Positions 2,858 to 34,212 of a stretch of 64,000 nt of DNA are shown piece by piece (position 1 is the stretch's first letter; the number at the start of each line of letters is the position of its first letter). Under the pieces are notes generated by a model, which had not been told where the DNA came from, ran no database searches, and worked only from the letters and a program-made list of their open reading frames with translations. The position numbers were made by a program, and so were the translations under genes. Source of the stretch: Pseudarthrobacter siccitolerans (lineage in GTDB: Bacteria; Actinomycetota; Actinomycetes; Actinomycetales; Micrococcaceae); NCBI RefSeq assembly GCF_030823375.1, contig NZ_JAUSXB010000001.1:2666001-2730000 (forward strand), written 5' to 3'.

Positions 2858-3414
2858 AGGGCAGGACTCCCTATCGTGCTGACGAGAAGGATGTTGTGTG
2901 CTGCTTAGCGATGTTCCTGGCCAAACGGCGCGGGCAAAATGGGGCATCTGCACATCAGAAGGTGGCTCTTTCAAGGCTCGGAGTCTTTCTGTGTCGGGGA
3001 TGGCTATTTCCAGTTCTCCTAGGTCGCCCGCCTGCGGCGTTCGACAAAGACGGTGCGCCAGATCGAGGTCCTAACGTTCGCTCACTGGTCGCGCCAGAAA
3101 CGGCGAAATTCGATGCCCGACGTCATTTCGTCCTCTCGGGGGTCGGGTACCCGGGAGCCAGAGTCTGCGGGACAAAGCCGGCTTTCGCGGGGGTCCGCCC
3201 GCACCGCCATAGCATCATGCGTGAAAGTTCCGCTATTTGCAATGCGGGAGTCGGCATCGCATTGCGTAGGTCCTCGCCAAAAGGGCCGTACTCATCCATA
3301 TGCGGCTGAAGCGGATGGATAACCCGGTTTAGTGATCGCTAAAGTTCGATCGGCAGTAGAGCACGAAATGGCGGAGGCCCTATTACCTGGATGACATCTG
3401 CTTAGCTACGACTT

Positions 3415-4914: not shown

Positions 4915-4969
4915 TTATCCCCACTTTATCCACAGCACTCGGTCCCCATTATCCACACGGTTATCCACA
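4915..4969. other. DnaA-box cluster within the parS region
   Basis: Three perfect TTATCCACA boxes (4926-4934, 4949-4957, 4961-4969) and one single-mismatch box TTATCCCCA (4915-4923), all in the same orientation within 55 bp. This density is as high as in oriC spacers, yet it lies about 8.7 kb from dnaA. Confidence 0.8.
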
Positions 4970-5192
4970 GCGCCTGCACCCAGGGCGAGCCCATTTCTAA
5001 CAGCTGCGGTGACTACGATAAGGGCTGGCCCTCCAGAGGAGGCAGGCAGTTGCCTAAGGGGGACCACGTATCAGGCCGAACCGAACCCTGCGGGCATCCT
5101 GTATTGCCCATAAATAAACCAGAAACGGCCGCTGACGCGAGGAAGCAGCGCCAATATAGGCAGCACGGTGCGATGTCACTGACGGCCGGGCC

Positions 5193-5206
5193 GTTCCACG
5201 TGAAAC
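5193..5206. other. parS site (one mismatch)
   Basis: GTTCCACGTGAAAC, one change from the exact palindrome in the left arm. The same variant recurs at 7166. Confidence 0.85.
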
Positions 5207-5281
5207 ATGAGACGCGACCGCCCCTCCGACTCCGGACAGCCGCTGCAGCTGCCGACCGGATGCTGACCTGAGATAGCCCTC

Positions 5282-5336
5282 ACATCCACAGGGAAGGCCG
5301 CGATTATCCACGCGGTTATCCACAGCCTTATCCACC
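5282..5336. other. Second DnaA-box cluster within the parS region
   Basis: One perfect TTATCCACA (5316-5324) lies with TTATCCACG (5304-5312), TTATCCACC (5328-5336) and a weaker ACATCCACA (5282-5290), all in the same orientation as the group 350 bp to the left. Confidence 0.75.
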
Positions 5337-13225: not shown

Positions 13226-13693
13226 GTTAGTTACTCCAGTGGATCAAAGGTGCGCCCACCCGATCAATATGGGGAAGAACTGGCCGACGCTAAGTTTTGT
13301 ATATGCACGCTTCCCCCGGCTGCTCACACGCACTGCGTCTGAGAGATTCAGATGGGGCCAAAAAGCGCACACAAAGGACTTCACAACGTTAGGGCAATTC
13401 AGGGCCCCTAGTCAAACCGGAGCAGGCCACCGGCACTATCCCCAGCTGTGGCAAACCTGCCCTTCGAGCCTGTGGATGAAGTGGCTCACAGGCTGCTTTT
13501 TAGAACCACAACAGTGTAATTATCCACAAGCTACTGGCCAGCTATCTTCTAGGCTTTTCATCCCCTAGAGTTGCCCAGTAGCCGATTATCCACGTGCTGT
13601 GTATAACCCTGTGGATGAAGCTGAACCTGATCCTGGTTCCGCGCTTGCGGCTGCAGGCAATGCAGGCAAAGCAAGTTTTGAGGGAACCCATTG
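13226..13693. other. rpmH-dnaA spacer with DnaA boxes (part of oriC)
   Basis: This 468-bp divergent spacer must hold the rpmH and dnaA promoters. DnaA boxes visible: a perfect TTATCCACA (13520-13528), TTATCCACG (13586-13594), TGTGTATAA (13598-13606, complement TTATACACA) and two TGTGGATGA (13471-13479, 13610-13618). The boxes crowd the dnaA side, which fits autoregulation by DnaA. I could not assign a promoter with confidence. Confidence 0.75.
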
Positions 13694-15115
13694 ATGACAG
13701 TAGACGAAGCCAACCACGCCAATACTGTCGGAAGTTCCTGGCGGCGCGTTGTCAGCCTGCTGGAGCAGGACCACCGCGTTTCACCGCGGCAGCGTGGCTT
13801 TGTCATCCTCGCCCAGGCCCAGGGCCTGATCGGTTCCACCCTGCTGGTGGCAGTACCCAACGAACTCACCCGCGAAGTGCTGCAGACCCAGGTCAAGGAC
13901 GCACTGGATGATGCACTGCACAGCGTCTTCTCCGAAGACATCCGCTGTGCCATTGACGTGGACACGGACCTGGTGCCCATCCACGAAGAGCCCGAGCCCG
14001 TCGTCGAGCCTTCCTTCTCGCCGGACCAGCTGATCGAGCAGAAGCCGCAGCCCATGCTGCCCAGCACCTCCCACGAGTTCGGCCGGCTCAACCCTAAATA
14101 CGTCTTCGATACCTTCGTGATTGGTTCGTCCAACCGCTTTGCCCACGCTGCGGCCGTCGCCGTGGCGGAAGCGCCGGCCAAGGCCTACAACCCGCTGTTC
14201 ATCTATGGCGACTCGGGCTTGGGAAAGACCCACCTCCTGCATGCGATCGGGCACTATGCCCGGCGGCTCTACAGCGGCATCCGGGTCCGGTACGTCAATT
14301 CGGAAGAATTCACCAACGACTTCATCAACTCCATCCGTGACGATGAAGGCGCCAGCTTCAAGACCACCTACCGCAACGTGGACGTCCTGCTGATCGATGA
14401 CATCCAGTTCCTGGCCGGCAAGGACCGGACGCTGGAAGAGTTCTTCCACACGTTCAATTCGCTGCACAACAACAACAAGCAGGTGGTCATCACCTCGGAC
14501 CAGCCGCCCAAGCTGCTCGCCGGGTTTGAGGACCGCATGAAGTCCCGCTTCGAATGGGGCCTCCTGACGGACATCCAGCCTCCGGAACTGGAAACCCGTA
14601 TCGCCATTCTCCGCAAGAAGGCCCTGAGCGAAGGTCTTTCCGCTCCGGATGACGCCCTCGAGTACATCGCGTCCAAGATTTCCAGCAACATCCGTGAACT
14701 TGAAGGCGCCCTCATCAGGGTCACAGCGTTTGCCAGCCTCAACCGCCAGCCCGTGGATGTGGCCCTGGCGGAGATGGTGCTGAAGGATCTCATCACCGAC
14801 GACGGTGCCCAGGAGATCACGTCCAGCCAGATCCTGCAGCAGACGGCCGAGTACTTCAAGCTCAGCATGGAAGAGCTCTGCAGCAAGTCCCGCACCAGGA
14901 CCCTGGTTACCGCGCGCCAGATCGCCATGTACCTGTGCCGCGAACTCACGGACATGTCGCTTCCCAAGATTGGCCAGGAACTCGGCGGCCGCGACCACAC
15001 CACGGTGATCCACGCTGACCGCAAAATCCGTGAACTGATGGCAGAGCGGCGTGTGATCTACAACCAGGTGACCGAGCTGACCAACCGGATCAAGCAACAG
15101 CAGCGCGATTCCTGA
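13694..15115 (+). CDS. dnaA: Chromosomal replication initiator DnaA
   Basis: AAA+ ATPase that binds DnaA boxes and melts oriC. Visible: N-terminal DnaB-interacting domain I, an acidic/Pro-rich linker (about residues 85-120), Walker A GDSGLGKT (about 172-179), Walker B LLIDDIQF, and the C-terminal DNA-binding signature [15 protein letters not shown] lies just before the ATG at 13694; the ATG is better spaced (7 bases) from GAGGGAA, giving 473 residues. It is flanked on both sides by DnaA-box spacers. Confidence 0.98.
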
Positions 15116-15641
15116 CGAAGCATCTATACCTTATTAACAGGTGCATGTGGATAAGCCTGTGGATACTTAAGGGGACAACCGCGGTTAATGGGCTTAAAAC
15201 CCTTAAGCCGCCTGTGGATCGGGAAAAGCGCCAAAATTTTTATCCCCATCCACACCCTGTTTAAAACCTGCTCCGCCCACAGTCCATGAACAGGGCTTAA
15301 CCGCCGGATCCCGCGGCCGGAGGCAGTTATCCACAGTTTCCACAGCAGTTATTAACACTACTAATCCCAAAAAATTGAAGTCCCTCAAACAACAAGATCG
15401 ATTCGCCCGTTCCGCACCGAGGGGCCACCGGCCCCAAGGGGCCAGCGCCGCAAAGTGGGGATGGGTTAATCGCGGATCTTCCGGCTAAGCTGTCAGCAGC
15501 GGTCCCATCCTTGGGTTTCTGCGTGGTTCAGGCAGCAGCACGGACCATGCAGGTTCAGGACGCGGGGCATCCCTTTATGGGGCTTCCTGCGGGAAGTTTC
15601 GAAGAAACCAATGCAGCAGCAATGAAAGGCGGCACCCTTCC
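15116..15641. other. dnaA-dnaN spacer, probable core of oriC
   Basis: 526 bp without a gene. DnaA boxes: perfect at 15146-15154 (minus) and 15327-15335 (plus); near matches TGTGGATAC (15158-15166), TGTGGATCG (15213-15221) and GTTTCCACA (15336-15344). An AT-rich stretch around 15231-15246 (CCAAAATTTTTATCCCC) is the best unwinding-element candidate, helped by repeated TTAA steps at 15168-15206. dnaA-dnaN is the usual oriC site in Actinobacteria. The right half (about 15420-15640) shows no boxes and presumably carries the dnaN promoter. Confidence 0.8.
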
Positions 15642-29705: not shown

Positions 29706-30584
29706 ATGAGTTACGGAATTCCGTCGGCTGAGCCGTCCGCGCAGGTTCCGGTCTGCCCCCGGCATCCGGACCGGCCATCCTACGTGCGCTGTCAGCGGTG
29801 CGGACGCCCCGCGTGCCCGGACTGCCAGCGGGCGGCCGCCGTCGGATTCCAGTGCATTGACTGCGTCAACGAAACAAGGCGTACGACGCCGGAAGTGCGG
29901 ACGGTCTACGGCGGCGCCGCAACTGCCGGCAAACCATTGGTGACGTACGGCATCATCGCAGCGTGCGTGCTGGTGTACGTGCTGCAGTGGATCATCCCCG
30001 GCCAGGCCGTTTATGAACAGTTCGCCTACAACAACGTCTTCGCCACCCCTAAATACGGGGCCTTCGAGCCTTGGCGGATGCTCACGGCAGCATTCCTGCA
30101 CTCGCCGGATTCCGTGCTGCACATTGTCCTTAACATGTACACGCTGTGGATCTTCGGCCAGGCACTCGAGCCGCTCCTGGGCCGCATCCGCTTCCTGGCC
30201 CTCTACCTGATTTCGGCCATTGGCGGCTCGGTGGGATACCTGCTCCTGAACCCGCTGCTGGTGCCCGGGCAAGGCCTGGTGGGAGTAGTGGGCGCTTCAG
30301 GTGCCATCTTCGGGCTCTTCGGTGCCATGCTGTTGGTACAGCGGCAGCGCGGCGGAGATACCCGCCAGCTGTGGGTGCTGATCGCCATCAACGGTGTGAT
30401 CGGCTTCCTCATCCCCCAGATCGCCTGGCAGGCGCACCTTGGCGGCCTGGTCACCGGCGGGCTCTGCGCGGCGGTCCTCGCCTACACTCCCCGCGGACGC
30501 CGGCAGGGCCTGGTCCAGGCAGCCGGCCTGGTAGCGGTCCTCGCCCTGCTGGTTGCCGCCAGCTGGATCCGAATTTCGCTCTAG
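29706..30584 (+). CDS. Rhomboid family intramembrane serine protease with zinc-finger N-terminus
   Basis: 292 residues. The N-terminus (about 15-58) has Cys/His pairs (CPRHPDRPSYVRCQRCGRPAC, CIDC) forming a B-box-like zinc-binding module. Six or seven membrane segments follow, with the catalytic serine in GASGAIFGLFG and the histidine in QAHLGGLVTG. Such proteins cleave substrates in the membrane plane. It starts 9 bp after ppiA, so they probably share transcription. Its terminator was split by the IS30 element. Confidence 0.93.
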   Translation: MSYGIPSAEPSAQVPVCPRHPDRPSYVRCQRCGRPACPDCQRAAAVGFQCIDCVNETRRTTPEVRTVYGGAATAGKPLVTYGIIAACVLVYVLQWIIPGQAVYEQFAYNNVFATPKYGAFEPWRMLTAAFLHSPDSVLHIVLNMYTLWIFGQALEPLLGRIRFLALYLISAIGGSVGYLLLNPLLVPGQGLVGVVGASGAIFGLFGAMLLVQRQRGGDTRQLWVLIAINGVIGFLIPQIAWQAHLGGLVTGGLCAAVLAYTPRGRRQGLVQAAGLVAVLALLVAASWIRISL

Positions 30585-30653
30585 ATCCCAAGGCTGCAGC
30601 CCGCTTTACCTTCCTAGACGAAAGGCCCCGACATCCCCAAGGCGAATTCTAGG

Positions 30654-30666
30654 GGTCGTTGCAACA
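30654..30666 (+). repeat. IS30 left terminal inverted repeat
   Basis: GGTCGTTGCAACA at the transposase 3' end of the element. Confidence 0.85.
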
Positions 30667-30674
30667 CCTGTTGG

Positions 30675-32123
30675 TTAGGTGGTTAGTAGTAGATCACGTA
30701 AACGCTCGGCTGGAGTATTCCAGCCGAGCGTTTTGCGTGGGCGGCCGTTGAGTTCCTGCGCGACGTGTTCGAGATCTTCGGGTCCGTAGACGGACAGGTC
30801 GGTGCCTTTGGGGAAGTACTGGCGCAGGAGCCCGTTGGTGTTCTCGTTGGAGCCGCGTTGCCAGGGGCTGGCGGGATCGCAGAAGTAGACGGGCATGTCG
30901 GTGGCAAGGGTGAATGATTTGTGGGTGGCCATTTCCGCGCCCTGGTCCCAGGTCAGGGAGCCTCGCAGGTGGGCCGGCAGGGTGGTCATGGTTTTGACGA
31001 GTCCGTCGCGGACTGTTTCGGCGGTGTGGTCATTTGGCAGGTGGATGAGCATTACGTAGCGGGTGGTGCGTTCGACCAGGGTCGCGATCGCTGACTGGTT
31101 GTAGGCGCCGGTGATGAGGTCCCCTTCCCAATGGCCTGGCACGGCGCGGTCCTCGATCTCAGGCGGGCGCTCGGAAATCATGACCATCGGGTCCACAAAC
31201 CGGGGAGTGCGCTGCTCGCCGCTGCGGTGGGGTTTGCGGCGGGTCCGGCCGGTGCGCAGGGCTGCCTGGATTTCGCGTTTGAGTCCGCCTCTGGCCTGGA
31301 CGTAGAGGGCTTGATAAATCGTCTCTGGGCTCACACGCATCTCCGGTTGGTCAGGGAACTCTCCGACCAGCGTGTGGCTGATCTGCTCCGGAGACCAGCG
31401 TAGGAGCAGCTTGTCCTTCACGTAGTCACGCAGGTCCGAGTCGCCTGCGAGTTTGGCCGCCTTGGGCCGCGTCCGGCGGGCAGCGGCAGCACGGTGCGCC
31501 GCATAGGGCTGGTAACCGTCGTTCCGTCCGTTGCGGGCGAGCTCACGGCTGATGGTGGACGGTGACCTGCCCAGCGCGGCAGCGATGGCCTGCTGCGAGG
31601 CACCGTGTCCGGACAGGTCCCGGATCCGCTCCCGGTCCTCCAGAGACAGGTAGCGCGGATCAATGGGTTTTTCCAGTGCGGTGATGCCCGGGGCGGGCAT
31701 AGCCATTACGCCGGCCGGGGTGTCAAAGGAGTTCACTCCCCGTTTGTAGTCGATCACCCATCCGTCAGGGTAAATGCGTCGATTGCTCGACTTCCGGATT
31801 CCCTGGTCCCAGTCCCTGGCCGTGCGAATGTTCACGCCAACTGTCCGTGCCGCTTCACGACGGGAAACACCGGCCTTGCGCAGCCGGAAGAACTCTTCCC
31901 TTCCCGGATGCGGGCCGGCGCCCGGAGTCCCGCGGCCTCTCAGACCGGCTTTCCTGACCCAGCCAGCGCATGTGTTGGCATTGAGTTCCAGCTCCCTGGC
32001 CGCTGCCCTCGTACTTCCAAGACGGTCAAAAACCGCGAAAAACGCAGCCTTCTGATCCTGGCCCGAACGCACTCCACTTGATGATTCACGGCTTAAACGA
32101 GACACGGTCGTTGCAACTCCCAA
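30675..32123 (-). CDS. IS30-family DDE transposase
   Basis: 482 residues. An N-terminal helix-turn-helix pair (SRREAARTVGVNIRTARDWDQG, then GHGASQQAIAAALGRSPSTISRELARNG) precedes the catalytic domain with D in HWEGDLI, D in TWDQGAEM and E in SNENTNGLLRQYFPKG. The frame looks intact, so the element may be active. The longest start is a TTG at 32123 lying between the two subterminal repeats; a GTG at 32105 is an alternative. Confidence 0.95.
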   Translation of the reverse strand: MGVATTVSRLSRESSSGVRSGQDQKAAFFAVFDRLGSTRAAARELELNANTCAGWVRKAGLRGRGTPGAGPHPGREEFFRLRKAGVSRREAARTVGVNIRTARDWDQGIRKSSNRRIYPDGWVIDYKRGVNSFDTPAGVMAMPAPGITALEKPIDPRYLSLEDRERIRDLSGHGASQQAIAAALGRSPSTISRELARNGRNDGYQPYAAHRAAAARRTRPKAAKLAGDSDLRDYVKDKLLLRWSPEQISHTLVGEFPDQPEMRVSPETIYQALYVQARGGLKREIQAALRTGRTRRKPHRSGEQRTPRFVDPMVMISERPPEIEDRAVPGHWEGDLITGAYNQSAIATLVERTTRYVMLIHLPNDHTAETVRDGLVKTMTTLPAHLRGSLTWDQGAEMATHKSFTLATDMPVYFCDPASPWQRGSNENTNGLLRQYFPKGTDLSVYGPEDLEHVAQELNGRPRKTLGWNTPAERLRDLLLTT

Positions 32124-32146
32124 AATTCTGGATGTTGCAACGACCG
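32105..32146. repeat. IS30 right end: terminal repeat plus inverted internal copy
   Basis: CGGTCGTTGCAAC (32105-32117) and its complement (32134-32146) form a 13-bp perfect stem around a 16-nt loop. The outer copy is the terminal repeat; the inner one overlaps the transposase 5' end. Confidence 0.75.
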
Positions 32147-32179: not shown

Positions 32180-32563
32180 TTATCCACAGCAGTTATCCAC
32201 AATGTTGGTAACTTACACGCCTGTAGTTCAGGTGCGGAAAACAACTTTCCCGCCAACTGGCACGACCTCTTCGCAATATCCCCCCAGTTAGTCCACAACT
32301 GTGGATAACTCTTGGGGATAGAACTGTGCTTAAGTGGACAAAGCTGCCCCGAAACCCTGCTTCTGTGGAAAAACACTGGGAAAGCGGCCGGGCTGGATGC
32401 TTAAGGTCGGTTTGCACCTCCCCTTTCAACAGGCTTTTGCACAGTGTTAATAACTGACAGCGACGTAGTTTCTTGTGGAAAATGCCCGGAGTACGGTGCC
32501 GGAAGGCCAGGAGCCACCCCATTTCCCCCAAGGTTTCCACAACTGTGGATAACTTGTGGGTAT
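32180..32563. other. DnaA-box cluster upstream of the AhpD-like gene
   Basis: The 32147-32699 spacer holds no gene but has four perfect DnaA boxes: plus strand 32180-32188 and 32193-32201, minus strand 32300-32308 and 32544-32552. Weaker boxes are TGTGGAAAA (32364, 32474), GTTTCCACA (32533) and TGTGGGTAT (32555). It lies about 17-19 kb from oriC and begins immediately after the split terminator. The promoter of the following gene must lie inside it. Confidence 0.85.
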
Positions 32564-32699
32564 CCGGATGTTGGTAAGTGGAAAAGACGAGATCGTTGGT
32601 GTGCAAAGCTGGGGTTGCAACGGGCAGCCACCTACGCCTTCACTGGAAGGTACGCCTGCCAGTTAGTCCCGCACGTTGTGTTCCGATCAGGAGAATCCT

Positions 32700-33167
32700 T
32701 TGAGCGCCACTACGCAGCACATCTACCTCGATAAGCAGCATCCCGCCCTGTGGAGAGCCCTTAACGGACTGGGACTGAAGGTGCGGGAGGCCGCCGAAGC
32801 GGCAGGCCTGGACGAATCCACCGTGGAGCTCCTGCGGGTCCGCGTTTCACAGCTCAATGGATGTGCCTACTGCCTCGACCTTCATGTAAGGGAAGCAATG
32901 GAGGCAGGCGAAACGGTGCAGCGAATTGCCGTACTCCCGGCATGGCGCGAGACAGCTCTCTTTACCGAGAAGGAGCGGGCCGCACTCGCACTGGCCGAGA
33001 GCATTACGGAACTGCCGGGCCACAGCCAGCAGGGGAACGAGGAGGCCTACGCCCGGGAGCACCTCTCGGAGGAGGAGTTCTCGGCGGTGAGCTGGTTGGC
33101 CATTGCCATGAATGCGTTTAACCGCGTCTCAATCACCAGCCACCATCCGGTTACCCGGGACCGGTAA
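32700..33167 (+). CDS. AhpD-like carboxymuconolactone decarboxylase family protein
   Basis: A 155-residue all-helical protein with the family active-site segment LNGCAYCLDLHVREA (CxxC followed by His), typical of alkylhydroperoxidase AhpD-type thiol peroxidases. TTG start at 32700 after AGGAG with 7-base spacing; an upstream ATG in the same frame at 32676 lacks such a site. It stands alone and is bracketed on both sides by DnaA boxes. The natural reductant is unknown. Confidence 0.9.
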   Translation: MSATTQHIYLDKQHPALWRALNGLGLKVREAAEAAGLDESTVELLRVRVSQLNGCAYCLDLHVREAMEAGETVQRIAVLPAWRETALFTEKERAALALAESITELPGHSQQGNEEAYAREHLSEEEFSAVSWLAIAMNAFNRVSITSHHPVTRDR

Positions 33168-33195
33168 ACAGCCTGGCTGCACATATTCGGGTAGG

Positions 33196-33344
33196 TTATC
33201 CACAGGTCTTCCACATTGTTAATAACCGCATCCGTGCGGACCGCTACACGCTTTGGTACGGCAGGGCGCAGGATGCTGATCCGGTCGAGGGGCCGCCAAG
33301 GAGTTTTCAACAGTGTGGATAACTTTCCCAACAGTTGTGGAAAA
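33196..33344. other. DnaA-box cluster downstream of the AhpD-like gene
   Basis: Perfect boxes at 33196-33204 (plus) and 33314-33322 (minus), with TGTGGAAAA at 33336-33344. Together with the upstream group this makes six perfect boxes in about 1.15 kb. The last boxes approach the end of the leftward tag-like gene. Confidence 0.82.
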
Positions 33345-33352
33345 CGGTGTTG

Positions 33353-33973
33353 CTAGGCGCTGGGACCGGGCCAGACTCCGGAAGATCCGCGCCGGTGGCT
33401 GTCCAAAAGATGGGTATCCACCATGCCGATGGCTTCCATCAGGGCAAACATGGTGGTGGGCCCTACGAAGGAGAAGCCCTTCTTCCGCAGCGCCTTGGAC
33501 AGGGCGGCCGACTCAGGGGACTGTGTGGGGATGTCGGAGTGGACTGCCGGGCTGGGCGTCGCAGCGGGTTTGAACTGCCAGACGAACTCCACCAGGCCGC
33601 CTTCCTGCCGCAGTGCGAGCGTGGCCCGGGCATTGGTGATGGCGGAGCGGACTTTCAGGCGGTTCCGCACAATGCCTGGGTCCTGCATCAGGCGCTCAAC
33701 GTCATTATCAGTAAACAACGCCACAGCGTCAGGGTTGAAGCCGGCGAAGGCCGCCCGGAACGCGGGGCGCTTCCGGAGGATGGTGGCCCAGGAGAGCCCT
33801 GCCTGGAAGCCCTCAAGGCAGATCCGCTCGTAGAGCCCGTGTTCATCAGTGACCGGCAGGCCCCACTCGGTGTCGTAGTACTCGCGCAGGAGCGGATCGA
33901 CGGAGGCCCACAGAGGCCGGGCCAGTCCGTCCTCACCCACTACGGCGCCGCTGTCAGTAGCTATGAACGCCAC
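33353..33973 (-). CDS. tag: Tag-like DNA-3-methyladenine glycosylase I lacking the zinc ligands
   Basis: Helix-hairpin-helix glycosylase that removes 3-methyladenine. The conserved body is clear: LLREYYDTEWGLPVTDEHGLYERICLEGFQAGLSW, TILRKRPAFRAAFAGF and SKALRKKGFSFVGPTT. In E. coli Tag a structural zinc is held by Cys4, His17, His175 and Cys179; by eye three of these four are replaced here (PLWAS, YYDTEW and HLLDS contexts). The frame opens at 34039 inside crgA; I prefer the GTG at 33973, giving 206 residues just after the crgA stop. Glycosylase activity is probable but the missing zinc site makes it less certain. Confidence 0.82.
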   Translation of the reverse strand: MAFIATDSGAVVGEDGLARPLWASVDPLLREYYDTEWGLPVTDEHGLYERICLEGFQAGLSWATILRKRPAFRAAFAGFNPDAVALFTDNDVERLMQDPGIVRNRLKVRSAITNARATLALRQEGGLVEFVWQFKPAATPSPAVHSDIPTQSPESAALSKALRKKGFSFVGPTTMFALMEAIGMVDTHLLDSHRRGSSGVWPGPSA

Positions 33974-34212
33974 CGGGTGGTCATGAGGAACCCGACGATC
34001 GCGATGCCGAACCCGGCCACGATGTTCCAGGATTCCCATGCCTGGACCGGGAGGCGGCCTTCGCTGATGTAGAAGGTGATGATCCAGAGGAGGCCGATGA
34101 TCATCAGGCCGAACATCACCGGCTTGAACCAGACGGGGTTCGGCTTGTAGGCCTGCGACGAAGCCTGCTGGGTGGTGCTGGCGGTCTTCTTGCGTGGCTT
34201 TGACTCGGGCAC
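33961..34212 (-). CDS. crgA: Cell division protein CrgA
   Basis: An 83-residue protein with a Lys/Ser/Thr-rich N-terminus and two membrane segments (WFKPVMFGLMIIGLLWIITFY and WNIVAGFGIAIVGFLMT) separated by the conserved SEGRLPVQAWESWN. CrgA binds FtsZ, FtsQ and FtsI and coordinates septation in actinomycetes. GTG start at 34212 after AAGGAGAG. Divergent from the sortase gene, as in relatives. Confidence 0.92.
   Translation of the reverse strand: MPESKPRKKTASTTQQASSQAYKPNPVWFKPVMFGLMIIGLLWIITFYISEGRLPVQAWESWNIVAGFGIAIVGFLMTTRWRS

Follow-up and report, generated by a model that had tools for sequence, protein, structure and literature searches.

Here, we describe a cluster of DnaA boxes, and the short DNA element repeated within it, in Pseudarthrobacter siccitolerans (Micrococcaceae). 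The window, by which we mean the whole stretch of 64,000 nucleotides that was analysed (contig NZ_JAUSXB010000001.1, positions 2,666,001 to 2,730,000), carries dnaA and, between the rhomboid-family gene rho and crgA, a cluster at 32180-33322 of six perfect TTATCCACA 9-mers. These lie at 32180+, 32193+, 32300-, 32544-, 33196+ and 33314-, exactly where an earlier note on this DNA had placed them, and in each spacer beside the AhpD-like gene the plus-strand boxes come first and the minus-strand boxes after, as that note had also described. The near matches that it had mentioned comprise three one-mismatch boxes (32364-, 32474-, 33336-) and a two-mismatch TAGTCCACA at 32289+. The window holds 13 perfect boxes against a mean of 0.10 and a largest count of 1 in 100 dinucleotide shuffles, and the whole 4.5 Mb genome holds just 36, therefore chance is ruled out; nowhere else in the full genomic list do six fall within ~1.2 kb. 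The gene order is gyrA, ppiA, rho, an IS30-like transposase gene, the cluster with the AhpD-like gene (ahpD) inside it, tag, crgA and a sortase gene, and the features that matter below are as follows.

13691..15115, plus strand: dnaA, with boxes on both sides (13471-13618 and 15146-15335)
29706..30584, plus strand: rho, rhomboid-family gene (PF01694, E 2e-30), the cluster's usual neighbour in Micrococcaceae
30675..32123, minus strand: IS30-like transposase gene (Pfam HTH_38 and rve), separating rho from the cluster
32180..32229, plus strand: element copy A1 (profile 52.1 bits, E 5.5e-15, the copy belonging to the training set), made up of box1 (32180-32188), box2 (32193-32201), a degenerate inverted box (32203-32211) and the palindrome AACTTACA-CGCC-TGTAGTT (32210-32228)
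32289..32308, minus strand: B1, a perfect inverted box (32300-32308) facing the weak plus-strand box TAGTCCACA (32289-32297), 120 bp after the A1 start
32424..32470, plus strand: element copy A2, with degenerate boxes and part of the palindrome retained (2 mismatches; profile 28.2 bits)
32544..32552, minus strand: B2, a perfect inverted box 120 bp after the A2 start
32700..33167, plus strand: AhpD-like gene of the CMD family (PF02627, E 1.8e-19), inside the cluster
33194..33226, plus strand: partial element copy A3, 3' of ahpD, with a perfect box at 33196-33204 (profile 21.0 bits)
33314..33322, minus strand: B3, a perfect inverted box, followed by TTTTCCACA at 33336-33344
33353..34039, minus strand: tag, DNA-3-methyladenine glycosylase (PF03352, E 1.3e-66)
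33961..34209, minus strand: crgA (PF06781), directed towards rho across the interval

A 50-bp element within the cluster

The boxes group as three A...B modules. A starts at 32180, 32424 and 33194, and B, a perfect inverted box, follows each time 120 bp from the start; the unit is often multiplied in Micrococcaceae, as in these three copies. Alignment of the intervals between rho and crgA defines the element as a stretch of about 50 bp with sharp edges, in which box1 is followed by box2 12-13 bp on, by a degenerate inverted box from 10 bp past box2 and by the palindrome TTACA-N4-TGTAA. The alignment drew on 137 segments (135 scorable, 102 reaching the score used), and its anchors were the two boxes, ACA-N4-TGT and a few adjoining letters; the inverted-box columns, though outside these anchors, are strongly conserved. 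Defined by tandem boxes, inverted box, palindrome and a place between the rho 3' end and crgA, the actinobacterial rho-crgA element, a kind in which we count the mycobacterial site discussed below, is found at 32180-32229. Measured from the start of the model, 2 bp ahead of box1, the nearest downstream perfect inverted box (sought at 60-200 bp) stands at 122-127 bp for 58 of the 104 copies and at 143-149 bp for a lesser group; these copies come from family and class intervals with related genomes counted separately, and since the family counts include the 79 elements used for training, the class alone is an independent test.

The exact palindrome pattern occurs in the window only at 32210-32228. 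Genome-wide, with up to two mismatches allowed, there are six matches (one exact, at the cluster) against four for the reversed control, which is near chance, and because of those four the five further matches, each with one or two mismatches and two of them being both strands of one site, mean little; two matches of this kind lie far from the origin, at G000:C1:181678-181697 and 4125946-4125964. The commonest arms, TTACA, are unlike DnaA boxes, whereas the paper on the mycobacterial site discussed below calls the palindrome there box-like, as far as its accessible text goes (PMC7738170), and there is evidence both for and against taking the palindrome as ordinary DnaA boxes.

A second origin at this place is not supported, the cluster being less AT-rich than the stretch beside dnaA (lowest guanine-plus-cytosine (GC) fraction over 60 bp 0.38 at 32424, against 0.33 at 15344); local GC skew follows gene strand, and so decides nothing on origin status. 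The IS30-like transposase gene, for which the loci of 80 relatives gave no tblastn match, is an insertion and no part of the element. Judged by eye, the IS30-like element spans 30653-32145 with terminal repeats of the kind GGTCGTTGCAACA / TGTTGCAACGACC, and its flanks (AAGGCCCCGACATCC ... GGATGCCGGGGCCTT) suggest insertion within the loop of the rho terminator.

Conservation in the family, the class and beyond

We located crgA in 149 of 149 genomes of the family Micrococcaceae, that of the window included, and compared the loci of 80 relatives, at least one from each of 31 genera. Boxes in relatives were counted as TTRTCCACA, that is TTATCCACA or TTGTCCACA, because both are named high-affinity boxes in the accessible text of PMC4285127. 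Where rho precedes crgA (61 loci, including the window), at least one such box lies in the interval in 60 and at least two in 57, the single miss being L098. These family intervals hold 241 boxes against 1.71 expected from dinucleotide shuffles, and box density is 1.54 per kb within the interval against 0.015 outside it, where "outside", here and for the class below, leaves out the oriC side upstream of gyrA.

The remaining 20 relatives (of 80) do not have rho and crgA adjacent in that order, which separates the two genes as possible anchors of the boxes. We located rho in all 20 and examined 1.1-1.4 kb 3' of it; a perfect TTRTCCACA is retained there in 19, the exception (G012) carrying five one-mismatch boxes instead, and no TTRTCCACA lies less than 2 kb from crgA in any of the 20. 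As 19 of 20 keep boxes 3' of rho and none near crgA, the boxes in Micrococcaceae travel with rho and the origin rather than with crgA. The distance from rho to dnaA in these genomes is 13-21 kb in 19 and 62 kb in G101, while crgA shares a contig with dnaA in 14, at 17 kb (G104), 21 kb (G012), 33-152 kb in ten and, in two single-contig genomes, 2.4-2.6 Mb as measured along the contig (if the molecules are circular, ~0.3 and 0.6 Mb). A role for the cluster as a regulator of crgA was rejected as a general one, the boxes keeping to rho when the two genes part. Measured in 56 of the 60 syntenic relatives (the other four lacking dnaA on the contig or a dnaA match), the element lies a median of 14.95 kb from the DnaA domain, with 53 of the 56 loci within 12.5-25.8 kb and the others at 108, 149 and 330 kb. 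The neighbours vary among rho, crgA, tag and ahpD while the cluster persists.

Across the class, crgA was found in 196 of 197 genomes, and among the 60 loci compared rho precedes crgA in 53, with a perfect TTRTCCACA between them in 38. These 53 intervals hold 63 boxes against 0.18 expected, at a density of 1.43 per kb within and 0.007 outside. In the usual class arrangement, rho and crgA converge across a short interval (median 301 bp over the 53 loci); the Micrococcaceae interval is often long, with a median of 2.5 kb and up to 9 kb. A profile of 53 model positions, trained on the 79 Micrococcaceae elements only, matches within the interval at E <= 1e-3 in 42 of the 60 class loci, and 32 of these 42 matches span at least 40 of the 53 positions, the weaker ones resting mainly on the boxes. 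Five more matches at this threshold lie upstream of gyrA, on the oriC side, and a Markov-resampled control (one first-order resample) gave no match at E <= 1. Seven of the 32 fuller matches carry the element inverted. Because rho and crgA converge on the site, and some lineages have the element inverted, a role as promoter or terminator is unlikely in the usual class arrangement.

A pattern scan for the element over 84,980 bacterial and archaeal species returned at least 120 stretches, and the 80 titles among the matches listed are all actinobacterial. Among 120 matches listed, 107 have rho or crgA no more than 4 kb away (70 stand between both genes); 99 of the 107 share the orientation of the window and 8 are inverted. 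Of the 13 others, three have yidC on one side and dnaA on the other, two fall where a dnaE-like gene begins, one lies upstream of gyrB, and the rest are beside other or undetermined neighbours. The full elements between yidC and dnaA belong to L254, L282 and L299 (Peptidiphaga, Actinotignum); those at the dnaE-like gene start, placed by eye, to L242 (4172-4223) and L290 (3608-3657), an Acidimicrobiales metagenome-assembled genome and another actinobacterial one; and that upstream of gyrB to L295. Elements away from rho and crgA also occur in L252, L309 (Brachybacterium) and L269 (Rothia), by eye near a pyroglutamyl-peptidase-like or superoxide-dismutase-like gene, with two pattern copies in L309 and a second, weaker profile match in L252.

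We found no report pairing DnaA boxes with crgA, and none of conserved actinobacterial DnaA boxes outside oriC, in the open-licence literature, and the accessible portions of PMC13121528, PMC13152386, PMC4210621 and PMC3411110 contain nothing on the rho-crgA locus. The arrangement has a parallel in mycobacteria.

The window cluster adjoins crgA and lies on the same side of the origin, like the mycobacterial Rv0010c-Rv0011c site, in which we take Rv0011c to be crgA. Purified M. tuberculosis DnaA highly enriches five regions, Rv0010c-Rv0011c among them, and chromatin immunoprecipitation sequencing in M. smegmatis recovers homologues of the same five, according to the accessible part of Hicks et al. 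(2020, PMC7738170), which also states that the Rv0010c-Rv0011c site has no obvious correspondence in other species. In nine records titled Mycobacterium or Mycolicibacterium, the element lies 67-76 bp from crgA, in one copy with partly degenerate boxes, whereas three copies, with a larger number of perfect boxes, stand in the window; rho was not found at the element in these nine records. The element offers a counterpart for a DnaA site that its discoverers, in the text available (PMC7738170), could not relate to other species, and the mycobacterial site now looks like one case of an old, shared actinobacterial control site. If the element is that counterpart, results from Arthrobacter or Streptomyces would therefore bear on the mycobacterial site.

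A candidate for the protein on the palindrome is at hand in the same interval, since HigA2 binds 5' of Rv0010c through an ATCAC-N-GTGAT palindrome at what is called the same site as the DnaA site, in the accessible text of PMC11205783; binding there is described as essentially complete only at 8 uM. The motif ATCAC-N6-GTGAT is contained in eight of the nine mycobacterial elements. As a general palindrome partner, HigA2 is doubtful, given that the case comes from one species and needs 8 uM for essentially complete binding, and that most aligned elements have TTACA arms. An insertion sequence (IS) element has repeatedly entered the Rv0010c-Rv0011c interval of clinical isolates, by the available text of PMC7738170, and an IS30-like element stands beside the window cluster, possibly by coincidence.

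What the locus may do

To our knowledge, how actinobacteria hold replication to once per cycle is poorly known, and a 50-bp site whose position and internal geometry are fixed, and for which a partner is predicted, makes the question testable in soil actinobacteria, where the palindrome could serve as bait for the partner protein. With moderate confidence, and on comparative grounds, we read the observed boxes, element, conservation and position as a conserved oriC-proximal DnaA control locus of actinobacteria, 3' of rho and ~15 kb from dnaA, that most likely acts as a negative-feedback DnaA sink; the cluster is not a feature of ahpD. We infer DnaA binding at the window locus, the direction and timing of its effect, and the partner. 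DnaA would load on the cluster boxes, and the locus, copied almost immediately after firing, would double in dosage early and draw active DnaA off the weaker oriC boxes, so that re-initiation would be delayed, perhaps accompanied by ATP hydrolysis of the datA kind. A partner protein, probably bound at the palindrome, would set the timing.

By analogy, the sink is favoured by the place next to oriC, the presumed early duplication, the multiplied perfect boxes and the clusters of Bacillus subtilis and Streptomyces coelicolor, which lie close to oriC and repress untimely initiation (Okumura 2012; Smulczyk-Krawczyszyn 2006, as relayed in the accessible text of a citing review and a research paper). 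Like those clusters, the window has several DnaA boxes outside yet near oriC. Like E. coli datA, the cluster is a non-coding group of DnaA boxes outside oriC on the oriC side of the chromosome; datA acts near oriC and its dosage matters, and it is defined by promoting DnaA-ATP hydrolysis and by over-initiation upon deletion. The datA site has, however, its own IHF site and a different spacing, and the element profile reaches 7.8 bits in the datA stretch.

Several observations weigh against a sink, or against its reach. In the accessible text of PMC7738170, mutants of the mycobacterial site have longer cells, to a degree similar to dnaA alleles whose phenotype is compared with hypomorphs, and the dnaA mutants show an unchanged initiation rate; the long-cell phenotype fits the removal of a positive element no less well than that of a sink. 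The order tandem, tandem, inverted with a head-to-head pair is shared with the E. coli DnaA-reactivating sequence DARS1 (bioD-uvrB), 15 of the 53 class rho-crgA intervals lack a perfect box, and the constant distance to dnaA partly reflects general conservation of gene order. The long Micrococcaceae interval holds further genes, which leaves room for a promoter role there. Just 21 of the 197 class genomes contain the strict pattern, each a single time (next to crgA in 14, elsewhere in 5, with 2 undetermined), and 7 of 197 phylum genomes match it, 3 of the 7 outside the class, against none for the reversed pattern in either set of 197; the strict pattern is insensitive and restricts the reach that can be claimed. 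Between rho and crgA, the eight g55 loci (probably Streptomyces) each contain three or more TTRTCCACA, yet the full element is not evident in them: five match the profile at E <= 1e-3, none of these over more than 40 positions, and the other three fall short of that threshold.

The main rival, which we consider possible and yet clearly less probable than a sink, is a DARS-like site. There, box2 and the inverted box would form a head-to-head pair on which DnaA-ADP, aided by the tandem box1, would shed its ADP and be recharged, so that the locus would promote initiation. The element consensus has the DARS arrangement of boxes III, II and I with I and II head-to-head, a pair described as characteristic of DARS and essential for it, and on 26 kb of E. 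coli DNA (the DARS1, DARS2 and datA stretches) the best match of the profile is the DARS1 core; the match is weak (E 0.017, 9.6 bits), covers model positions 8-36 and stops before the palindrome, and the DARS2 stretch reaches only 6.1 bits. The resemblance of the mycobacterial site mutants to dnaA alleles compared with hypomorphs would also suit this reading. On the other side, the inverted box is offset from box2 by 10 bp in the element and by 14 bp in DARS1, because of which we did not file the element as a DARS, and since similar box triples stand beside dnaA in the window (profile matches at 13586-13616 and 15132-15165, 14-16 bits), the order tandem, tandem, inverted is not special to the rho-side cluster. 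DARS1 and DARS2 also lie far from oriC, and datA nearer (relative distances 0.33, 0.21 and 0.10), and a recharging site beside oriC would presumably feed forward just after initiation.

A wider conjecture, which we offer tentatively, is that actinobacteria share an ancestral oriC-linked site for DnaA remodelling, composed of the head-to-head triple and a palindrome-binding protein as counterpart of IHF or Fis at datA and DARS2, of which the cryptic mycobacterial site would be a reduced form, and that some lineages put the element to further use near dnaA, dnaE and gyrB.

It seems rather improbable that the element is instead a general transcriptional site responsive to DnaA, which at rho-crgA would control a neighbour or an unannotated RNA. 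Its occurrence between yidC and dnaA, at dnaE-like gene starts and upstream of gyrB in some actinobacteria would fit such an operator, as would its place 5' of Rv0010c in M. tuberculosis, where HigA2 binds a palindrome and a higA2 mutant has raised Rv0010c expression (PMC11205783, accessible text). Against this, the site in its usual class arrangement has the 3' ends of both neighbouring genes facing it, its orientation can be inverted, its neighbours change while it stays, and in dnaA mutants expression of the mycobacterial neighbours is unaltered, as stated in the accessible part of PMC7738170.

Still less probable is a structural or positioning site of the origin domain that uses DnaA, for example for segregation. 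The cluster does lie within ~15 kb of dnaA, and the window has a third DnaA-box cluster, missed by the earlier note, at 4915-5336 (four perfect and three one-mismatch boxes, mostly tandem, with an 11-12 bp period), which sits inside a parS array between trxA and parB; the array has perfect parS at 3414 and 4080 and near matches at 2843, 5192, 5897, 6622, 7165 and 9785. The rho-side cluster, however, has no parS-like site at up to three mismatches.

The proposal that boxes couple the redox gene ahpD to DnaA, which had two A...B modules with four perfect boxes upstream of ahpD in its favour, can be given next to no credence and is largely refuted as an explanation of the cluster: just 2 of 80 relatives (L061, L062) carry ahpD at the crgA locus, against boxes in the rho-crgA interval of 59 of the 60 relatives having that interval and, among the 20 others, boxes 3' of rho in 19; and of 29 AhpD genes from other genomes of the family, compared with 1.5 kb to either side, 27 show no TTATCCACA. 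The two that do, L032 and L034, are located at the very cluster locus, and when TTRTCCACA is allowed, 25 of 29 remain without a box (L033 and L036 also gain one through TTGTCCACA). We thus rejected ahpD as the cause of the cluster; it resembles a gene lodged in an older cluster, and a side effect on ahpD in the window strain is possible. What stands of the earlier interpretation is a DnaA-box locus separate from oriC with a likely role in replication control, supported by strong comparative data and by DnaA binding to the corresponding mycobacterial interval (PMC7738170, accessible text), and what falls is the tie between the redox gene and DnaA.

Nearer to the origin, the boxes flanking dnaA are presumed to be those of oriC and the dnaA promoter, and one further feature upstream of dnaA recalls the element.

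13503..13528, minus strand: half-element, a palindrome with 3 mismatches overlapping the box at 13520

A similar half-element (box plus palindrome) stands upstream of dnaA in 6 of 20 relatives examined (L221-L224, L235, L237). Outside the window, ~45 kb left of dnaA, two perfect boxes lie 300 bp apart (G000:C1:2634753 and 2635052).
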